Below, one piece after another: positions 56,180-63,815 of a stretch of DNA of 64,000 nucleotides. Each line of letters begins with the position of its first letter. Positions within the stretch are counted from its first letter, which is position 1. The notes below the pieces were generated by a model, which had not been told where the DNA came from, made no database searches, and saw only the letters and a list, made by a program, of their open reading frames with translations. A program made the translations under genes and the position numbers. This stretch comes from Brevibacterium picturae (GTDB lineage: Bacteria > Actinomycetota > Actinomycetes > Actinomycetales > Brevibacteriaceae). The stretch is from the NCBI RefSeq assembly GCF_900105045.1, contig NZ_LT629739.1:3348001-3412000 (forward strand). Direction: 5' to 3'.

Positions 56180-56653
56180 TCAGGCTGCGTCGATGCCCAG
56201 CGCCTTGCGCACACGAGCAACGTGGCCGGTGGCCTTGACGTTGTACTGTGCCAGTTCCACGGCACCGTCGGCATCGATGACGAGCGTCGAGCGGATGACA
56301 CCCTGGACGACCTTGCCGTAGTTCTTCTTCTCGCCGAAGGCGCCCCAGGCTTCCATCATGGATTTGTCGGGGTCGGAGAGGAGATCGAAGTTCAGGCTCT
56401 CCTTCTCAGCGAACTTCTTGAGCTTCTCCGGCTTGTCGGGTGAGATGCCCAGGACGACGAGACCGGCAGCCGAGAGTGCCGAGAGCGAATCGCGGAAGTC
56501 GCAGGCCTCGGTCGTGCAGCCGGGGGTCATGGCAGCTGGGTAGAAGTAGACGACGACCCGCTGTCCCTTGAACTCGCTGAGGGTCACGGACTTCTCATCC
56601 TGGTTGGTCAGGGTGAAGTCCGGGGCTGTGTCGCCGACTGACAGACGTGGCAT
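56180..56653 (-). CDS. bcp: Thioredoxin-dependent peroxiredoxin (Bcp/PrxQ)
   Basis: This 157-residue protein reduces hydroperoxides. The peroxidatic Cys is in YPAAMTPGCTTEACDFRD, and a second Cys five residues later (GCTTEAC) is the resolving Cys of Bcp/PrxQ. GAVEL and GKVVQGVIRSTLVID are also in place. The ATG at 56653 has GGAG seven bases upstream; a longer reading adds 18 unrelated residues. It is 50 bases behind the biotin carboxylase gene. Confidence 0.95.
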   Translation of the reverse strand: MPRLSVGDTAPDFTLTNQDEKSVTLSEFKGQRVVVYFYPAAMTPGCTTEACDFRDSLSALSAAGLVVLGISPDKPEKLKKFAEKESLNFDLLSDPDKSMMEAWGAFGEKKNYGKVVQGVIRSTLVIDADGAVELAQYNVKATGHVARVRKALGIDAA

Positions 56654-56703
56654 AGTGTCTCCTCTTCTCGTGCGGAACTTATCGGAAGTTCTCAGTTCAC
56701 AGC

Positions 56704-58458
56704 TCACTCTATTCGAGCGATGACTTCGCCGACAGCCACCATGGCTCCGACGCTCGTCACCTGTGTCAGCGTCCCGGACGCGGGTGCCTGGACGCGCGTC
56801 TCCATCTTCATCGCGGACAAGACGGCGACATCGTCTCCCTCGGCCACTTCGGCGCCGTCGGCGACGAGATAGTCGACGAGGTTGCCGGGCACCGGAGCGC
56901 TCACCGCTCCCTTGGCCGCGGCGCCGCCTTCAGACCCCGCCGAACCGGTCGAGCCACCAGAACCACCGGTATCGTCAGGACCGCCGCCAGCAGTGCCGAA
57001 GGCTGCCCACAGTGCGGCCGGCAGGCCGAGTCGCCTCAGCTTTCCGTCGATCTCGATGTCCATCCGTGTCAGCGAGGACTCGGCGCTCGGCGCTGGACGC
57101 GGCTGCGTCGTCAGTCGGGGGAGGAGCTGTGTTTCGATCCACTGTGTGTGGATGCCGAGCTCCTCGGCGGTGAACGCCGGATCGGTGAGGATTTCCAGGG
57201 AACAGGGGAGGACTGTGGCCGGTCCCTCAACGTGCAGTTCCTTGGCTGCAGTGACCGTGCGCGCGATCGCAGAATCACGGTCGGGTCCGTGGACGATGAG
57301 TTTGGCGAACAGTGAGTCGAAGGCCGGTTGTACAGTGTCACCGGCGCGGACCCCGGCATCCCAGCGCACTCCGGGCCCACCCGGAGCAGTCAGAGAATCG
57401 ATGCGGCCCGGCGTGGGCAGGAAACCTCGGCCGGGATCTTCGGCGTTGATGCGCAGCTCGATCGCATGTCCGTGTGGCTCGGGCGTCGAGGACAGGGACA
57501 GCCCTTTGTCGAAGGCGATGCGGAACTGTTCGGCGACGAGGTCGACCCCGGACACCGCCTCGGTGACGGGGTGCTCGACCTGCAGGCGAGTGTTAACCTC
57601 GAGGAAGGTCATCGTATCGTCTGCGGCGAGGAGGAACTCGACGGTGCCCGCGCCCCGATAGGCCACCTCGGCGCAGATGGCTTCGGCCGAACGGTGGAGA
57701 CGCTCACGCTGATCGGCGCTGAGCCCGGGAGCCGGCGCCTCCTCGATGAGCTTCTGATTGCGGCGCTGGGCCGAACAGTCACGATCGCCGACTGCCACGA
57801 CGCGGCCCTGACCGTCGCCGACGATCTGGACCTCGACGTGGCGGGGGCGTTCGAGGAATTTCTCGACGAAGCATTCTGAGCGCCCGAACGCTTCGACGGC
57901 CTCACGGGTGGCTGATTCGAAGGCATCGGCCACCTCGGCGAGGTCGTGGACGATCTTCATTCCGCGCCCGCCTCCGCCATGGGCGGCCTTGATGATGATC
58001 GGCAGACCGTGTTCGGCGGCGAACTCCTCGACCTCGGCGGCATCCTTCAGCGGTCGGTCGATGCCCGGAGCCAGCGGGGCGCCGACCTTCTGCGCCAGTT
58101 GGCGGGCGGTGACCTTGTCACCGAGTGCCGTGATCGTGTCCGCGGTGGGGCCGATCCAGATGAGTCCGGCATCCTCGACCGCGGCAGCGAAGTCGGCGTT
58201 CTCGGACAGGAATCCGTACCCGGGGTGGACGGCCTCGGCTCCCGATTTCTGCGCGGCTGCGATGATCGCGTCGATGTTGAGATAGGTCTCGGCGGCGCTG
58301 GTCCCCGGCAGGGAATAGGCTTCGTCGGCCAACTGGGTGTGCATGGCCTCGAGGTCCTGGTCCGCGTAGATCGCGACCGAGGTGTGCCCGTGATGCGAGC
58401 AGGCGCGGATGATGCGGACGGCGATTTCGCCGCGGTTGGCGATGAGGATCTTCGGCAT
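56704..58458 (-). CDS. Biotin carboxylase fused to biotin carboxyl carrier domain
   Basis: This 584-residue protein has a full biotin carboxylase (1-445): the start PKILIANRGEIAVRIIRA, the ATP-grasp loop KAAHGGGGRGMKIV, and VNTRLQVEHPVTEAVSG. A Gly/Ser-rich linker (around 495-515) leads to a BCCP domain with the biotinyl Lys in SAMKMETRV. It resembles acyl-CoA carboxylase alpha chains, but no acyl-CoA carboxyltransferase gene is near. Instead the next gene upstream encodes fused PxpB-PxpC, whose fold is the carboxyltransferase of urea carboxylase, so a split urea-carboxylase-like enzyme is likely. Three bases separate the two genes. Confidence 0.92.
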   Translation of the reverse strand: MPKILIANRGEIAVRIIRACSHHGHTSVAIYADQDLEAMHTQLADEAYSLPGTSAAETYLNIDAIIAAAQKSGAEAVHPGYGFLSENADFAAAVEDAGLIWIGPTADTITALGDKVTARQLAQKVGAPLAPGIDRPLKDAAEVEEFAAEHGLPIIIKAAHGGGGRGMKIVHDLAEVADAFESATREAVEAFGRSECFVEKFLERPRHVEVQIVGDGQGRVVAVGDRDCSAQRRNQKLIEEAPAPGLSADQRERLHRSAEAICAEVAYRGAGTVEFLLAADDTMTFLEVNTRLQVEHPVTEAVSGVDLVAEQFRIAFDKGLSLSSTPEPHGHAIELRINAEDPGRGFLPTPGRIDSLTAPGGPGVRWDAGVRAGDTVQPAFDSLFAKLIVHGPDRDSAIARTVTAAKELHVEGPATVLPCSLEILTDPAFTAEELGIHTQWIETQLLPRLTTQPRPAPSAESSLTRMDIEIDGKLRRLGLPAALWAAFGTAGGGPDDTGGSGGSTGSAGSEGGAAAKGAVSAPVPGNLVDYLVADGAEVAEGDDVAVLSAMKMETRVQAPASGTLTQVTSVGAMVAVGEVIARIE

Positions 58459-58461
58459 GAT

Positions 58462-60108
58462 TCAGTGTCCGTTCTCCGGTGAATGGTGGGTGTGGTCTGT
58501 GGTGGTGGCACCGTCGACAGCTACCGGCGAGGCGTCGGTGACGAAGCGGATCCTGACCCCGGGTGCCAACTGCGCGGCGAGGTCCGTGTCATCGACGCTG
58601 GCGATGATCGGATAGCCGCCGGTCAGCGGATGGTCGGGGCCGAACATCACCGGCTGTCCGTTGGGTGGGACCTGCAGCGCCCCGGTGACGGCCCCCTCGC
58701 TGGGCAGTTCTCCGGTGCGGGCTCGTTCGAGTGCGACCTCGCCGCTCAGTCTGAGGCCGACGCGATCGGATTCGTGCGTGACCGTCCATTCCTGGCTCAG
58801 CAGAGTCGTGACTCCCGCGTCGGTGAACCAGTCTTCGCGCGGTCCCAGGGTCACCGACAGTTTGATCGTCTCCCCAGGTGCGGGCAGGTGTCGCTCGTGG
58901 CCCGAGCCGTGGATCGCATCGACGAGATGAGGTGCCGACTCCGGTCGGTCCAGAGCGACCGTCGTGTCCGGCTCGAGGTGTGCCGGCCCGAGATGAGCCA
59001 GCGTGTCGCTCGAGGCGCTGCCCAGAGCAGTCTCCGAATCGATCCCACCCCGGAAGGCGACATAGATCCGGGTTCCGCGTTCGGCGGCGCCGAGTTCGAG
59101 TTCGTCCCCGTCTTCGAGTGAGAAGGCCTCGCCGAGGTGGTGCCGGTACGCGGTTCCACCGGCAGAGGTGACGGTGATCGTGGAGTGCGCCCCGGTCACA
59201 GCGGCCACACCGTGACCGCCGATGGCCAGTTTCGTGCCACCCCCGAAGCTCTCCAGCCCGGCCGCGGTCTCGGCGTTGCCGACCAGACGGTTGCCGGTGC
59301 GCAGCGCCTCGCGGTCGGCTGCTCCGGCGCTCGAGACTCCCATGGCCGCGAAGCCGGGACGTCCGAGATCCTGGATGAGCAGCTGCAGTCCGGGTCGGAT
59401 GACCGTGATGGAATGCGCCGAGGCGGCGTCAGGCTGCGAGGCAGGCGCGGCCGATTGCGAGGATGAGCCAACCGTCACCGATTCCCGTTCGGCCTTGCGG
59501 AACTTCACCGTCGTCCCGGGCACGAACAGCGCCGGTGGTTCCCGGTCGAGGTCCCACAGCGTGGCGTCGGTGCGGCCGATGAGCTGCCAGCCGCCGGGGG
59601 AGGCCCGAGGATAGACCCCGGTGAATTCCCCTGCCAGGGCCACGGCTCCGACTGGAACCCGGGTGCGTGGTGAGGAGCGGCGGGGGACGTTGAAGATCGG
59701 ATCGTCACCGGCCAGATATCCGAATCCGGGGGCGAACCCGGAGAATGCGACCTGCCAGGTCGCACGCTGATGCCGAGCGACCACCTCGGCGGTCGACAGC
59801 GACAGAAGTTCAGCCACCTCGGCGAGGTCCTCCCCGTCGTAGCGGACGTCGATCGTGACCTCACGGGACTCGGTCGAGCCCGCCCCGGTGTGCTCGAGCC
59901 TGCGGATCCGGTCAGTGAGCACCGACGCCGAGGTGCGGGCCGGGTTGAAGCGGATGAGCACCGTCCGTGCGGCCGGGATCAGCTCCTCGACGCCGTCGAG
60001 TTCGGCCGCCTGAAGGGCTTGATGCAGGTGCATTGTGGCGACAAGATCGGGGCATTCGACGAGGAGATGACGGCGGGAGGCGGTGTGGAAGTCAAGGTTG
60101 TCGATCAT
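58462..60108 (-). CDS. Fused 5-oxoprolinase subunits PxpB-PxpC (KipI-KipA, AHS1-AHS2)
   Basis: This 548-residue protein joins two proteins that are normally separate. Residues 1-210 are KipI/PxpB (AHS1): [42 protein letters not shown] and the strongly conserved [18 protein letters not shown]. Residues 245-525 are KipA/PxpC (AHS2): [35 protein letters not shown] and [17 protein letters not shown] Ser/Ala-rich linker joins them. The ATG at 60108 overlaps the DUF1445 stop (ATGA). Both domains form the carboxyltransferase of urea carboxylase, and with PxpA they form ATP-dependent 5-oxoprolinase. Confidence 0.93.
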
Positions 60109-60923
60109 TGGCGAAAGGTGCCTTCCGGCGCGTCGGTGATGAACATCCGGCCCGGTGAGTGCGTGATCGCGAACGGTGGGGCCGAGGCTTGGATGGCGAC
60201 CTGAGGAGTGACTCCGCAGGCCCAGAACACGGGAATGTCGCCGTCCTCGATCACCGGCGCGTCGCCGAAGTCGGGGGAGTCGAGGTCGGTGATGCCGATC
60301 TGCTCGGGTTCTCCGATGTGGACGGGACCACCGTGGACGGCGGGGAAGCGGTCGGTGATGGCCACCGCCTCGGCGACCTGTCGGGCGGGGATGGGGCGCA
60401 TGGACACGACCATGTTCCCGTGGACCCGACCGGCGGGTCGGCAGGCGATCGAGGTGGAGTACATCGGCACGTTGCGGCCGGCTTCCTGGTGGCGGATCGG
60501 GATGCCCGCATCCAACAGACCGGTCTCGAAGGTGAAGCTGCATCCGATGAGGAAGGACACGAGGTCAGGATGCCGGGACCAGGCCTCGGTGGCGTCCGCG
60601 ACTTCGTCGACGAGGGCACCGTTCTCCCACAGCCGGTAGCCGGGGATGTCGGTGCGCAGGTCACTGCCCGGCGCCAGCGCGGATTCGACCTGTCCGGGTT
60701 CGAGGACGTCGATGACCGGGCACGGTTTCGGGTTGCGTTGGGCGAAGAGCAGCATGTCGAAGGCCCAATCGGCAGGGACGGCGATGAGGTTGGCCTGGAC
60801 CAGGCCAGGCGCCAGACCAGAGGTGGGTTCCGCGGAACCGGCCCGGATACGCTCACGGGCCTGCGCCCCAACCGAGGCCTCAGCCGATCCTTGCGCCCCG
60901 GCCGCAGTGCGGACCTCGTTCAT
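60105..60923 (-). CDS. DUF1445/D-glutamate cyclase-family protein (YcsI-like)
   Basis: This 272-residue protein resembles B. subtilis Ycs[63 protein letters not shown] and the C-terminal [28 protein letters not shown]. The family was long annotated as putative hydro-lyase; its mammalian relative takes part in D-glutamate cyclisation to 5-oxo-D-proline. Its place between PxpA and PxpBC fits a supply of 5-oxoproline. The ATG overlaps the pxpA stop. The N-terminal 35 residues are low complexity. Confidence 0.9.
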
Positions 60924-61720
60924 CGACCGGCACCGGCGAAGGCAGCGATCCTCACGCCCGAGGACTCGAGGAGTTCGCGCGCGGCACGGGCCATGTCGAT
61001 CGAGCCCTGGCTGTCGCCGTGGAAACAGATCGACTGGGCGTCGACGTCGACGAGGCTGCCGTCGATGGCCTCGACCTGTCCTGTCTGGACGAGTTTCAGG
61101 ACGCGGGCAGCCACGGCCTCGGGGTCGTGGAGGACAGCGTTGGGCTCGGTGCGGGAGACTAAAGAGCCGTCGGGGTTGTAGGAGCGGTCGGCGAAGGCCT
61201 CGGCCGCAACCTTCAGCCCAGCCTCGGCGGCAACACGATTGGCCACGCTGCCGGCCAGGCCGAGGAACACAAGGCTGTCATCGACGGCCTTGACCGCATC
61301 GACGACGACCTTGGCCTGTGCCTCGTCACGGACGATCGCGTTGTAGAGGCCTCCGTGGGGTTTGACGTAGGCGACCGAGCCGCCGACAGCGGAGGTCAGG
61401 CCCAGAAGGGCACCAATCTGATACTCGACCTGGGCCTGCAGGGTCGCTGGCGGTACGTCGAGTGGGCGTCGACCGAAGCCTTCGTAGTCGTCGTAGCCAG
61501 GGTGGGCGCCGATGACGACTCCGCCTTTCGTTGCCGCAGCCAGGGTCTCTCGGATTCCCTCGGGGCTGCCGGCGTGGAAGCCGCACGAGACGTTGGCGCT
61601 GGTGACCAGACCCAGCATGGCCGAATCGTCGCTGACGACGCGGTCGGGAACGTTCTCCCCGAGGTCCGAATTGAGGTCGATGGTCACCGCGTCTGCGGCG
61701 TTCGTATCTGTGGCGTTCAT
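60920..61720 (-). CDS. pxpA: 5-oxoprolinase subunit PxpA (LamB/YcsF family)
   Basis: This 266-residue protein has the LamB/YcsF signature LNSDLGENV (normally LNCDLGEG), [38 protein letters not shown] and [17 protein letters not shown]. It is the catalytic part of the PxpABC 5-oxoprolinase, which opens 5-oxoproline to glutamate using ATP. The ATG at 61720 has GGAGG six bases upstream. It lies two bases behind the NRAMP gene stop and overlaps the DUF1445 gene by four. The change of the usual Cys to Ser in LNSD is worth noting. Confidence 0.94.
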
Positions 61721-61722
61721 TG

Positions 61723-62973
61723 TCACCCTCCGATTCCGATCATTGCGAAGATGGGCCCGACCGACTCAACGGCCGTGTACCACATCACCAGTGTTGCCGT
61801 GGTGCCGATGATCAGCAACCACTTGGGGTACTTGTCGACGCGCAGCAGCTGTGGTCTGAACCAGCCGATATACATGAAGATCGTCAGGCCAATCGGCAGG
61901 ATGAGGCCGTTGAATCCGCCGACGAAGACGAGCAGGGTCGCCGGTGCTGTTCCGATGCTCAGGTAGACGATCAGCGACACGGCGATGAAGGCGACCGTGG
62001 CCAGCTGCAGTGGCCAGCCCTTGTCGAGGCGTTTGGAGAACGCGGACAGGAAGGTCGCCGAGGTGTAGGCCGCCCCGATCACCGAGCTCAGTGCCGCGGC
62101 CCAGAAGATGGCACCGAAGATGCGCATGCCCGCATCGCCGAGGACGGCGGCGAAGGCCTGGCCGGCAGGGTTGGCGACATCGCCGGACAGGTCGAGGGCG
62201 ACGCCCGAGGCAACAACGCCGAGGATGGCCAGGAACAGAATATAGCGCATGACGCCGGTGACGAGGATGCCGGAGAGTGCCGAGCGCATCACCGAGGGGA
62301 CGTGCTCCGGTCCGGTCTTGCCCGAGTCGAGATAGCGGTGGGCGCCTGAGTAGGTGATATAGCCGCCGACGCTTCCTCCGACGATGGTCGTGATGGTGGC
62401 GAAGTTGATCGTGTCGGGCAGGAAGCTCTGTTTGATCGCCTCGCCGACCGGTGGGTCGGAGACGATCGCGACGATGACGGTGAGGATGATCATTCCAACG
62501 CCGAGGACCATGACCACGGTGTCGACGACCTTGCCTGCGCGTTTGAACAGAAAGATGCCGATGGCCAGCACGCCGGTGAGCAGACCGCCGAGCTTCGGGT
62601 CGACGCCGAGGAGCGCGTTGAGGCCGAGGCCGCCGCCGGCGATGTTGCCGATGTTGAAGGCGAGTCCGCCGATGACGATGAGGATTGACAGGAGGATGCC
62701 CGTGCCCGGGATTGCGCTGGAGGCGAGCTGTGCGGCGCGTTTGCCCGAGGACGTGATCATACGCCAGACGTTGAGCTGGATGGCGATGTCGATGAGGATC
62801 GAAATGAAGATGGCGAAGGCGAAAGCTGCGCCCATCTGAGCGGTGAACGTCGCCGTCTGGGTGATGAACCCGGGGCCGATCGCCGAGGTGGCCATGAGGA
62901 AGATGGCGCCCAGGATTGCGCTGCGACTGACCTTCACTGGTTGTTTCGTGTCTTGATCTTGCGGCTGTGACAT
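61723..62973 (-). CDS. NRAMP-fold transporter without metal-binding motif (YcsG-like)
   Basis: This 416-residue protein has about 11 membrane helices and NRAMP landmarks such as [10 protein letters not shown] at the start of helix 1 and [19 protein letters not shown] in helix 6. The helix-1 metal motif DPGN is absent (TATFTAQMG takes its place), and the helix-6 MPH is missing. Metal transport is therefore doubtful. In B. subtilis, ycsG, an NRAMP relative, is beside ycsF, so this may import 5-oxoproline or a relative. It is the first gene of the operon, divergent from a GntR gene. Confidence 0.88.
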
Positions 62974-63176: not shown

Positions 63177-63815
63177 GTGAACCACGAATCGTCCCTGGTC
63201 AATCAGCTCACCGGCCGCCTCATCGCCGGCGAGCTGCGTCCTGGCGCCCGCCTGTCCGAAGCTGCACTGGCGAAAGAGTTCGACGTCTCCCGAAACACGC
63301 TGCGGGAGGCCTTCCGCGTGCTGGGGGAGCAGGGGCTGGTCAATCACATCCCGCACCGTGGGGTCTCAGTGGCCTCGCCGAACACCTCCGACGTCATCGA
63401 CATCTACCGGGTGCGTCGCCATATCGAATGCTCGGTGCTCGAGAACGCGCCGAACAACCACCCCGGCGCTGAGCAGATGCGCAGAGCAGTTGAGACCGCA
63501 CACAGTGCCGCTGCCGCCGATGACTGGCTGCAAGTGGGAACGCTGAATATGTCGTTCCACAATGCCGTGGTCTCACTTTCGGACAGCTCCCGGCTGATGC
63601 GCTCGTTCGGAAACGTCCTCGCCGAGTTGCGCCTGGCCTTTCTCAAGGTCGAGGTTCTCGACTTCCTCCACGCGCCGTTCGTCGAACGCAACCAAGAGGT
63701 TCTCGACGCCTACCTGAATGAGAGCCCGAGGGAGGCGGCCGCGAAACTCGGTGCCTACCTCGGCGACTCCGAACGGCAGGTGCTCGGCGCCTATGCCCGG
63801 GCTGGCCAGGACTGA
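63177..63815 (+). CDS. GntR-family regulator (FCD type) of the pxp cluster
   Basis: This 212-residue protein has the GntR helix-turn-helix ARLSEAALAKEFDVSRNTLREAFRVLGEQGLVNHIPHRGVSV, quoted in part, and a helical FCD domain with the ligand-site residues RRHIECSVLE, NMSFHNAVVSLS and FVERNQEVLD. The GTG start is six bases behind TAGGAT, a leaderless start. It probably controls the divergent NRAMP-pxpA-DUF1445-pxpBC-biotin carboxylase operon, the role taken by KipR in B. subtilis. Confidence 0.93.
   Translation: MNHESSLVNQLTGRLIAGELRPGARLSEAALAKEFDVSRNTLREAFRVLGEQGLVNHIPHRGVSVASPNTSDVIDIYRVRRHIECSVLENAPNNHPGAEQMRRAVETAHSAAAADDWLQVGTLNMSFHNAVVSLSDSSRLMRSFGNVLAELRLAFLKVEVLDFLHAPFVERNQEVLDAYLNESPREAAAKLGAYLGDSERQVLGAYARAGQD

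Follow-up and report, generated by a model that had tools for sequence, protein, structure and literature searches.

A two-chain, urea-carboxylase-like biotin enzyme predicted in a 5-oxoprolinase operon of Brevibacterium picturae

Introduction

Why should an operon for 5-oxoproline (pyroglutamate) breakdown carry a biotin carboxylase (BC)? The question is raised by five genes on the minus strand (62973 to 56704) of a 64,000-nucleotide stretch of the Brevibacterium picturae genome (contig NZ_LT629739.1, positions 3,348,001 to 3,412,000; hereafter the window, whose numbering is used throughout), in which homologues of the 5-oxoprolinase components PxpA, PxpB and PxpC are encoded together with a BC joined to a biotin carboxyl carrier protein (BCCP). 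An earlier note on this DNA had proposed that the PxpB-PxpC fusion acts as the carboxyltransferase (CT) and the product of the next gene as the BC-BCCP of an enzyme resembling urea carboxylase but split into two polypeptides. This split-carboxylase reading is likely, judging from the domains, residues and gene neighbourhoods described here, and it is also probable, if less securely so, that the operon as a whole imports and opens 5-oxoproline by means of a biotin-dependent lactam carboxylase made up of two polypeptides, whose product is passed to a hydrolase.

The Predicted Carboxyltransferase and BC-BCCP Proteins

The CT module would be provided by the PxpB-PxpC fusion (58462-60108, minus strand, 548 amino acids), whose Pfam matches are restricted to the CT families CT_C_D (AHS1, the PxpB domain; residues 7-195, 59524-60090) and CT_A_B (AHS2, the PxpC domain; residues 256-523, 58540-59343), with no ATP-binding family among them. 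An AlphaFold2 model of the fusion (predicted local distance difference test, pLDDT, 88) matches the folds of the Mycobacterium smegmatis pair 3MML (Z 39), TTHA0988 (Z 38) and Escherichia coli YbgJK (Z 35), as well as the CT part of the Kluyveromyces lactis urea amidolyase (Z 35) and urea carboxylase (Z 26); the structure entries matched are 3mml, 3oep/3opf, 5dud and 3va7/5i8i.

The adjoining gene (56704-58458, minus strand, 584 amino acids) matches Biotin_carb_N, CPSase_L_D2, Biotin_carb_C and Biotin_lipoyl in Pfam. Its BC module (residues 3-442, 57133-58452) is identical to E. coli AccC at 14 of 15 positions that we take to form the active site, the exception being H236, replaced by an asparagine that is also found in the urea carboxylases compared. 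The BCCP domain (residues 519-583, 56710-56904) carries an AMKM motif whose Lys551 (56806-56808) is predicted to be biotinylated from its alignment with K122 of E. coli AccB. With a BC domain, a BCCP with its motif and a CT module in an adjoining gene, in a pairing that is conserved, the operon is, by domains and residues, a biotin-dependent carboxylase set, and the claim that all the parts of a urea-carboxylase-like enzyme are present in two polypeptides is borne out, the BC and biotin-site residues being intact. The system would thus be a biotin enzyme of two chains that resembles urea carboxylase and is associated with a 5-oxoprolinase operon.

The BC-BCCP protein is of the AccA3 type. Its best PDB matches are 5mlk (acetyl-CoA carboxylase) and the AccA3 sequence of 30hu/9yx5, it falls in a clade of actinobacterial AccA3-like BCs, and it shares with AccA3 alpha subunits the presence of BC and BCCP on one chain; an acyl-CoA CT was found in the cluster neither in the window genome nor in the linked loci of the set L010-L127. 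This genome (4.44 Mb, a single contig) contains four BC matches, namely a pyruvate-carboxylase-sized frame, one beside a CT, one AccA-like and that of the operon, and three acyl-CoA CTs (C1:346000, 795826 and 4150342). As the operon lies at about C1:3.406 Mb, the nearest of these CTs is more than 0.7 Mb away, in agreement with the earlier observation that none is near. Since other BCs are present, the operon BC is not required for each CT of the genome to have a possible partner.

Linkage of BC and PxpBC Across Genomes

Relatives of the operon were collected from genome contigs as 39 loci, a set that is biased toward the query's kin. BC-BCCP lies directly downstream of fused PxpBC in 20 of them (in L019 within one frame with it), PxpB and PxpC are unfused and lack a BC in 13, and the remainder, two loci cut inside PxpC (L029, L031) and four without a detected PxpC (L043, L045, L046, L048), were not counted as unlinked. 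Two further draws were blind to BC. In the first, 29 of 119 Actinomycetota genomes contained CT_A_B, giving 33 loci (the window's own place excluded), of which five are of the urea-carboxylase type; BC and BCCP accompany 8 of the other 28. In the second, taken from the phylum of a Pelagibacteraceae genome (Pseudomonadota), 28 of 100 genomes contained CT_A_B, and of the 39 loci 11 are urea carboxylases and 10 of the other 28 have BC and BCCP. PxpA is also present in all 18 BC-linked loci of the two draws, and roughly two thirds of their Pxp-type loci have no adjacent BC. Given four BC genes in 4.44 Mb, a BC would be expected within 6 kb of a random gene in about 1% of cases, and the linkage between BC and PxpBC is not due to chance. 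The survey of co-occurrence that had been suggested for this locus thus gives 8/28 actinobacterial and 10/28 pseudomonadotal Pxp-type loci, and BC-linked pxp clusters are widespread rather than peculiar to the Brevibacterium locus.

Linkage follows the fusion of PxpB and PxpC. A BC stands beside complete fused PxpBC in 29 of 30 loci and beside the unfused form in 15 of 65. As these rows are related by descent, a Fisher test on them exaggerates the association, and the count of 65 includes one place twice (L047 and L123) and leaves out L066. This last locus was the only one in L010-L127 in which a search with the window genome's three CTs found an acyl-CoA CT, and it was rejected as a BC-linked locus, its BC sitting beside that CT. 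L063 carries the label unlinked, yet its contig stops short of the position at which its kin have the BC. A BC match somewhere in the genome was obtained for 33 of the 34 genomes with a locus labelled unlinked (including G026, whose contig ends, and G013, which contains L066), the miss being a 62%-complete genome, a result that neither supports nor refutes the borrowing of a BC from elsewhere.

On plasmids, a PxpBC search returned 741 records; in all six hand-chosen ones, opened from the 30 listed, BC and BCCP accompany PxpBC, joined as BC-BCCP in three and encoded by separate genes in the other three. One of them, a Klebsiella pneumoniae plasmid, bears the full set in the window's order (GntR, NRAMP, PxpA, hydro-lyase, PxpBC, BC-BCCP); near its complete pxp cluster there is a further BC-BCCP-like frame of 460 amino acids, cut by the end of the stretch (L049, 1-1380, minus strand). 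The reverse search, with BC-BCCP alone, gave 1242 records, and in all ten loci opened from the 25 listed, a choice that was not blind because some rows showed the neighbour's name, pxpA and PxpBC immediately precede the BC-BCCP gene; PxpBC forms a single frame in nine of them, and in L156 it is interrupted.

In Candidatus Avipropionibacterium avicola, a metagenome-assembled genome, PxpB, PxpC, BC and BCCP are found in one uninterrupted frame (L019:1076-4468), possibly a natural single-chain form. As proof of a single polypeptide the frame was rejected, since it comes from one such assembly and an AGGTGAG stretch resembling a ribosome-binding site precedes an internal ATG. As a separate observation, three loci (L058, L067, L076) encode urea-carboxylase-type AHS2-AHS1 CTs in frames of 682-742 amino acids, and neither BC nor BCCP was found within about 6 kb of them; these may be split urea carboxylases that borrow a BC-BCCP.

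Phylogeny and Coevolution

In a PxpBC tree of 110 rows (L029, L087, L031 and L126 excluded), the 30 rows with BC-BCCP are gathered in a single group (SH-aLRT 98), beside which stand 22 unlinked actinobacterial rows, unfused except for L080. Clusters with split BC and BCCP occupy three other groups, and the unlinked E. coli belongs to one of these; the linked or unlinked state changes five times on the tree when urea-carboxylase rows, L063 and L123 are left out. The BC tree mirrors that of PxpBC. Distances in the two proteins are correlated with r of 0.92 in the 30 loci with BC-BCCP, 0.69 when these are thinned to 19, and 0.89 in the 14 split loci, and in each of the three sets none of 2000 permutations was as high.

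In a broader BC tree, from which nine near copies were removed (L011, L012, L027, L014, L015, L016, L023, L092, L090), the linked BC-BCCPs group with good support with the window genome's AccA-like BC and the AccA3-like BCs of three other actinobacteria, some of them nested inside, so that the copies dedicated to PxpBC do not make up a single closed clade; the split linked BCs fall near AccC-like BCs. The window's BC-BCCP seems to derive from a copy of AccA3 that was first reserved for PxpBC and later moved together with it. In the fused-PxpBC clade, which is otherwise actinobacterial, nine rows from Pseudomonadota (six from the survey, three chosen plasmids) carry the AccA3-type BC-BCCP, and the AccC-like BCs of three of those genomes (G158, G166, G202) fall elsewhere in the BC tree, suggesting that an AccA3-type BC-BCCP may have been transferred into Pseudomonadota together with PxpBC. 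The nine rows form one group, so this may be a single transfer, one event rather than nine.

A structural counterpart is available in PDB 9YX5, described in its entry as the M. smegmatis long chain acyl-CoA carboxylase complex with MSMEG_0435-MSMEG_0436 bound, whose chains include AHS1, AHS2 and the AccA3 BC-BCCP. In a tree that contained this pair (and that additionally left out L083, L122, L047, L123, L125, L082, L120 and the urea-carboxylase rows), it groups with three unlinked actinobacterial rows, L073, L077 and L078, around which no BC and no PxpA appear within about 7 kb. As there is no BC near these kin, the BC-BCCP of the mycobacterial pair would be the shared AccA3. As far as the entry goes, 9YX5 can be taken to show a PxpBC homologue that makes use of the shared AccA3, the window operon having a copy of its own for this purpose.

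Proposed Reaction and Alternative Explanations

In the pathway proposed here, 5-oxoproline would be sensed by a GntR/FCD protein and imported by an NRAMP-like protein, as the shared gene order with pxpR-pxpT suggests. The BC, with its intact residues, would spend ATP and bicarbonate to carboxylate the biotin of the BCCP on the same chain, and the PxpB-PxpC fusion, as a CT of the urea-carboxylase type, would transfer the carboxyl group to the lactam nitrogen. PxpA would then hydrolyse the activated ring amide, and the resulting N-carboxyglutamate would lose CO2 to give glutamate. The net reaction would be 5-oxoproline + ATP -> glutamate + ADP + Pi with bicarbonate recycled, comparable to the action of urea carboxylase and allophanate hydrolase on urea. 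Judging by its family name, the DUF1445 protein probably connects D-glutamate with 5-oxo-D-proline. If correct, this would be a new reaction for biotin enzymes, lactam N-carboxylation as the ATP-spending step of amide hydrolysis, and would show concretely at which point PxpB/PxpC-type enzymes use their ATP; related clusters in many bacteria hint at a so far unrecognised route by which ATP is spent on lactam cleavage. Among the papers listed by full-text searches of open-access literature, which does not cover most subscription papers, none dealt with a biotin-dependent 5-oxoproline enzyme, and the paper behind 9YX5 was not among them.

Several observations weigh against this proposal. The cut-offs of the NCBIfam models for PxpB and PxpC are not reached, the PxpB part scoring 126.3 bits with TIGR00370 (cut-off 145.55) and the PxpC part 146.9 with NF045499 (cut-off 500), and the two window proteins score 528.2 and 149.2 with the urea-carboxylase model TIGR02712 (cut-off 1303.85); by this score, its clade and its two-chain architecture, the set is not a urea carboxylase. 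One locus, L080, has a complete fused PxpBC with no BC within about 6 kb, and an AlphaFold2 model of the single PxpB-PxpC-BC-BCCP frame of L019 gave a predicted template modelling score (pTM) of 0.52 and no usable domain arrangement. Bacillus subtilis PxpABC was reportedly active on mixing of the recombinant subunits. By its title, 9YX5 is an acyl-CoA carboxylase complex, and since PxpA is missing near the kin of its AHS pair, this pair need not be a 5-oxoprolinase. In the available text on the Corynebacterium glutamicum system, pxpT and pxpABC are the genes shown to be necessary and no BC is named (PMC13274462). Finally, at the thresholds used, no residue column separates BC-linked PxpBC from its unlinked sister clade, which means either that both forms use carboxybiotin or that the linkage has no catalytic meaning. 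The earlier note had expected the carboxylase to add something new to PxpABC, and the absence of a separating residue makes this possibly wrong. Unlinked forms may use the shared AccA3, and PxpABC-type 5-oxoprolinases could even be generally biotin-dependent, PxpBC being the CT of an N-carboxylating lactamase with its own BC/BCCP or with one borrowed from acetyl-CoA carboxylase (AccA3 in actinobacteria, AccB/AccC elsewhere). This extension is unlikely; if it held, it would explain the use of ATP in a family in which PxpB and PxpC match only CT domains.

The absence of a separating residue also agrees with another explanation, in which 5-oxoproline receives a phosphate from ATP through PxpBC itself, and BC-BCCP plays an accessory or regulatory, non-essential part. 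Such a phosphorylation has been assumed for PxpABC, being an assumption also in the text available for the C. glutamicum system, whose set of necessary genes would fit it (PMC13274462). On the other hand, PxpB and PxpC match CT families only and no ATP-binding family in Pfam, and a conserved pairing and coevolution with a complete BC/BCCP pair are hard to explain for a dispensable partner; this explanation is improbable. A similarly poor chance is given to the view that BC-BCCP is an extra acyl-CoA carboxylase alpha subunit acting in trans with AccD-type CTs, its place in the operon serving only to coordinate glutamate and lipid metabolism. Its AccA3 type and the fact that two of the three CTs of the genome have no adjacent BC match are in its favour, and two papers, in the text consulted, treat accB/accC linked to pxp or lying in the neighbourhood in this way: in work on CcpE of Staphylococcus aureus, where a regulator was found on a six-gene operon that includes pxpB, pxpC, pxpA, accB and accC, accBC were counted as fatty-acid genes (PMC11315280), and in Lactiplantibacillus pentosus an extra BCCP/BC pair was counted as acetyl-CoA carboxylase, separately from the 5-oxoprolinase genes (PMC12427679). 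Against it, a further AccA-like BC is available to those CTs in the genome, the operon's BC is linked to PxpBC and not to AccD (the sole locus with an acyl-CoA CT, L066, is not a pxp-BC cluster), and the AccA3-type gene travels with PxpBC in Pseudomonadota. If the lactam carboxylase proposed here is right, such "acetyl-CoA carboxylase" genes beside pxp genes, as far as they are described in the two reports, will need re-annotation.

The identity of the substrate is a separate matter. A true split carboxylase could act on something other than L-5-oxoproline, such as 5-oxo-D-proline, hydantoin, urea or another amide, which the same architectural evidence would accommodate and to which the D-glutamate cyclase family gene of the operon lends some weight; genes for N-carbamoylputrescine amidase, agmatine deiminase or an amidase also adjoin some related clusters. 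This is unlikely, because the PxpA, PxpT-like and GntR genes match the C. glutamicum 5-oxoproline system in kind and order, as it is presented in the accessible text (PMC13274462), and because pcp, whose product, pyroglutamyl-peptidase, releases pyroglutamate, adjoins two BC-linked clusters, pointing to pyroglutamate as the substrate. These are L153 (Eleftheria terrae) and L154 (a Comamonadaceae bacterium), both with a DUF979 gene and the former also with DUF969. It counts against the 5-oxoproline proposal that tblastn over L010-L160, whose flanks are short, found pcp in these two loci only and in none of the window's genus.

Altogether, the split-enzyme idea of the earlier note is partly supported, by the modules, the intact residues, a pairing conserved across phyla and a homologous AHS pair bound to AccA3 in 9YX5; the AccA3 type of the BC-BCCP leaves room for an acyl-CoA role in trans.

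Organization of the Operon and its Neighbourhood

All five genes were confirmed by open reading frame positions and Pfam at the places noted before. The NRAMP-like transporter gene (61723-62973, minus strand; Pfam Nramp) occupies the operon place of pxpT as given in the available text of PMC13274462, the correspondence resting on position and not on sequence comparison. It is followed by pxpA (60920-61726, minus strand), encoding a LamB/YcsF protein (PF03746) and predicted ring-opening hydrolase, which scores 329.3 bits with the subfamily model NF003814 (cut-off 226) and remains below the PxpA equivalog models of NCBIfam. Next comes the DUF1445 or D-glutamate cyclase family gene (60105-60923, minus strand; PF07286, now D-Glu_cyclase), a "putative hydro-lyase" above the cut-off of NF003969. 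The tight junctions claimed for the operon are confirmed as three overlaps of four bases, followed by a three-base gap between PxpBC and BC. A divergent GntR/FCD regulator gene (63177-63815, plus strand; Pfam GntR and FCD), PxpR-like by its position, lies outside the region delimited earlier and had been missed; it is conserved next to the operon in all 11 Brevibacterium loci. No palindrome of 16-17 bases with up to three mismatched positions was found between the window's regulator and transporter genes, and those found in 4 of 16 related stretches (L017, L020, L026, L115) have none in common, so that no PxpR site is claimed.

The closest named relatives of the operon are from Brevibacterium, and its gene order is repeated at 11 Brevibacterium loci and at Agrococcus L020; the Klebsiella plasmid, along with plasmids of Rhizobiaceae and others, has this order in full or shortened. 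PxpBC and BC share one reading frame that is split by TGA ATC ATG (58456-58464); the shared frame with its TGA is also seen in six further Brevibacterium loci tested and, with a longer gap, in Agrococcus L020. Downstream, an AhpC/TSA (Bcp-like) frame (56180-56707) overlaps the BC-BCCP stop by four bases if a GTG start is used. In other Brevibacterium it lies mostly a short distance from the cluster and in L017 further off, and because of this variable distance it was not counted in the operon.

Elsewhere in the window genome there is a second pxpA-pxpB-pxpC set without BC (G000 C1:3907579-3910255; L083:7580-10256), which adjoins TetR, MFS and aminotransferase genes, has a lower third-position GC than the genes further upstream, and shows an altered motif at the place of GFAPGF in the first set.

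Comparison with Known Systems

The C. glutamicum pxpR-pxpTABC cluster, shown by deletion and binding data to serve growth on 5-oxoproline, resembles the window operon in its divergent GntR regulator, its NRAMP-family transporter and its PxpABC; as described in the available text, it contains neither a BC-BCCP nor a DUF1445 gene, and two genes encode its PxpB and PxpC (PMC13274462). The window's transporter would be the counterpart of PxpT and of B. subtilis YcsG. PxpA, PxpB and PxpC are likewise homologous to those of PxpABC from B. subtilis and from E. coli (YbgJKL); the E. coli pxp cluster, unlike the window operon, is without BC and BCCP.

Caprolactamase CapAB offers a precedent of another kind, since its hydrolysis of a lactam requires both ATP and bicarbonate, and the intermediates proposed for it include a carboxylated lactim; according to the text consulted, this enzyme differs in being related to eukaryotic-type oxoprolinases and hydantoinases, is stated to be unlike PxpABC, and uses no biotin (PMC8453981).

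The M. smegmatis MSMEG_0435-MSMEG_0436 pair (AHS2/AHS1; 3MML when free), homologous to PxpC and PxpB and 40% and 46% identical to the window protein, is unfused, unlike the window's. In 9YX5, as far as the entry describes it, PxpB/PxpC homologues and a BC-BCCP of the same type as the window's are brought together in one structure. The urea carboxylase of urea amidolyase (K. lactis 3VA7, 5I8I) has the same parts as the window set, a BC, an AHS2/AHS1 CT and a BCCP, and the same CT fold. It acts on urea, its domains are carried by one chain (BC-AHS2-AHS1-BCCP in the bacterial rows), and its BC and CT belong to separate clades, whereas in the window the parts are distributed over two chains, with AHS1 before AHS2.

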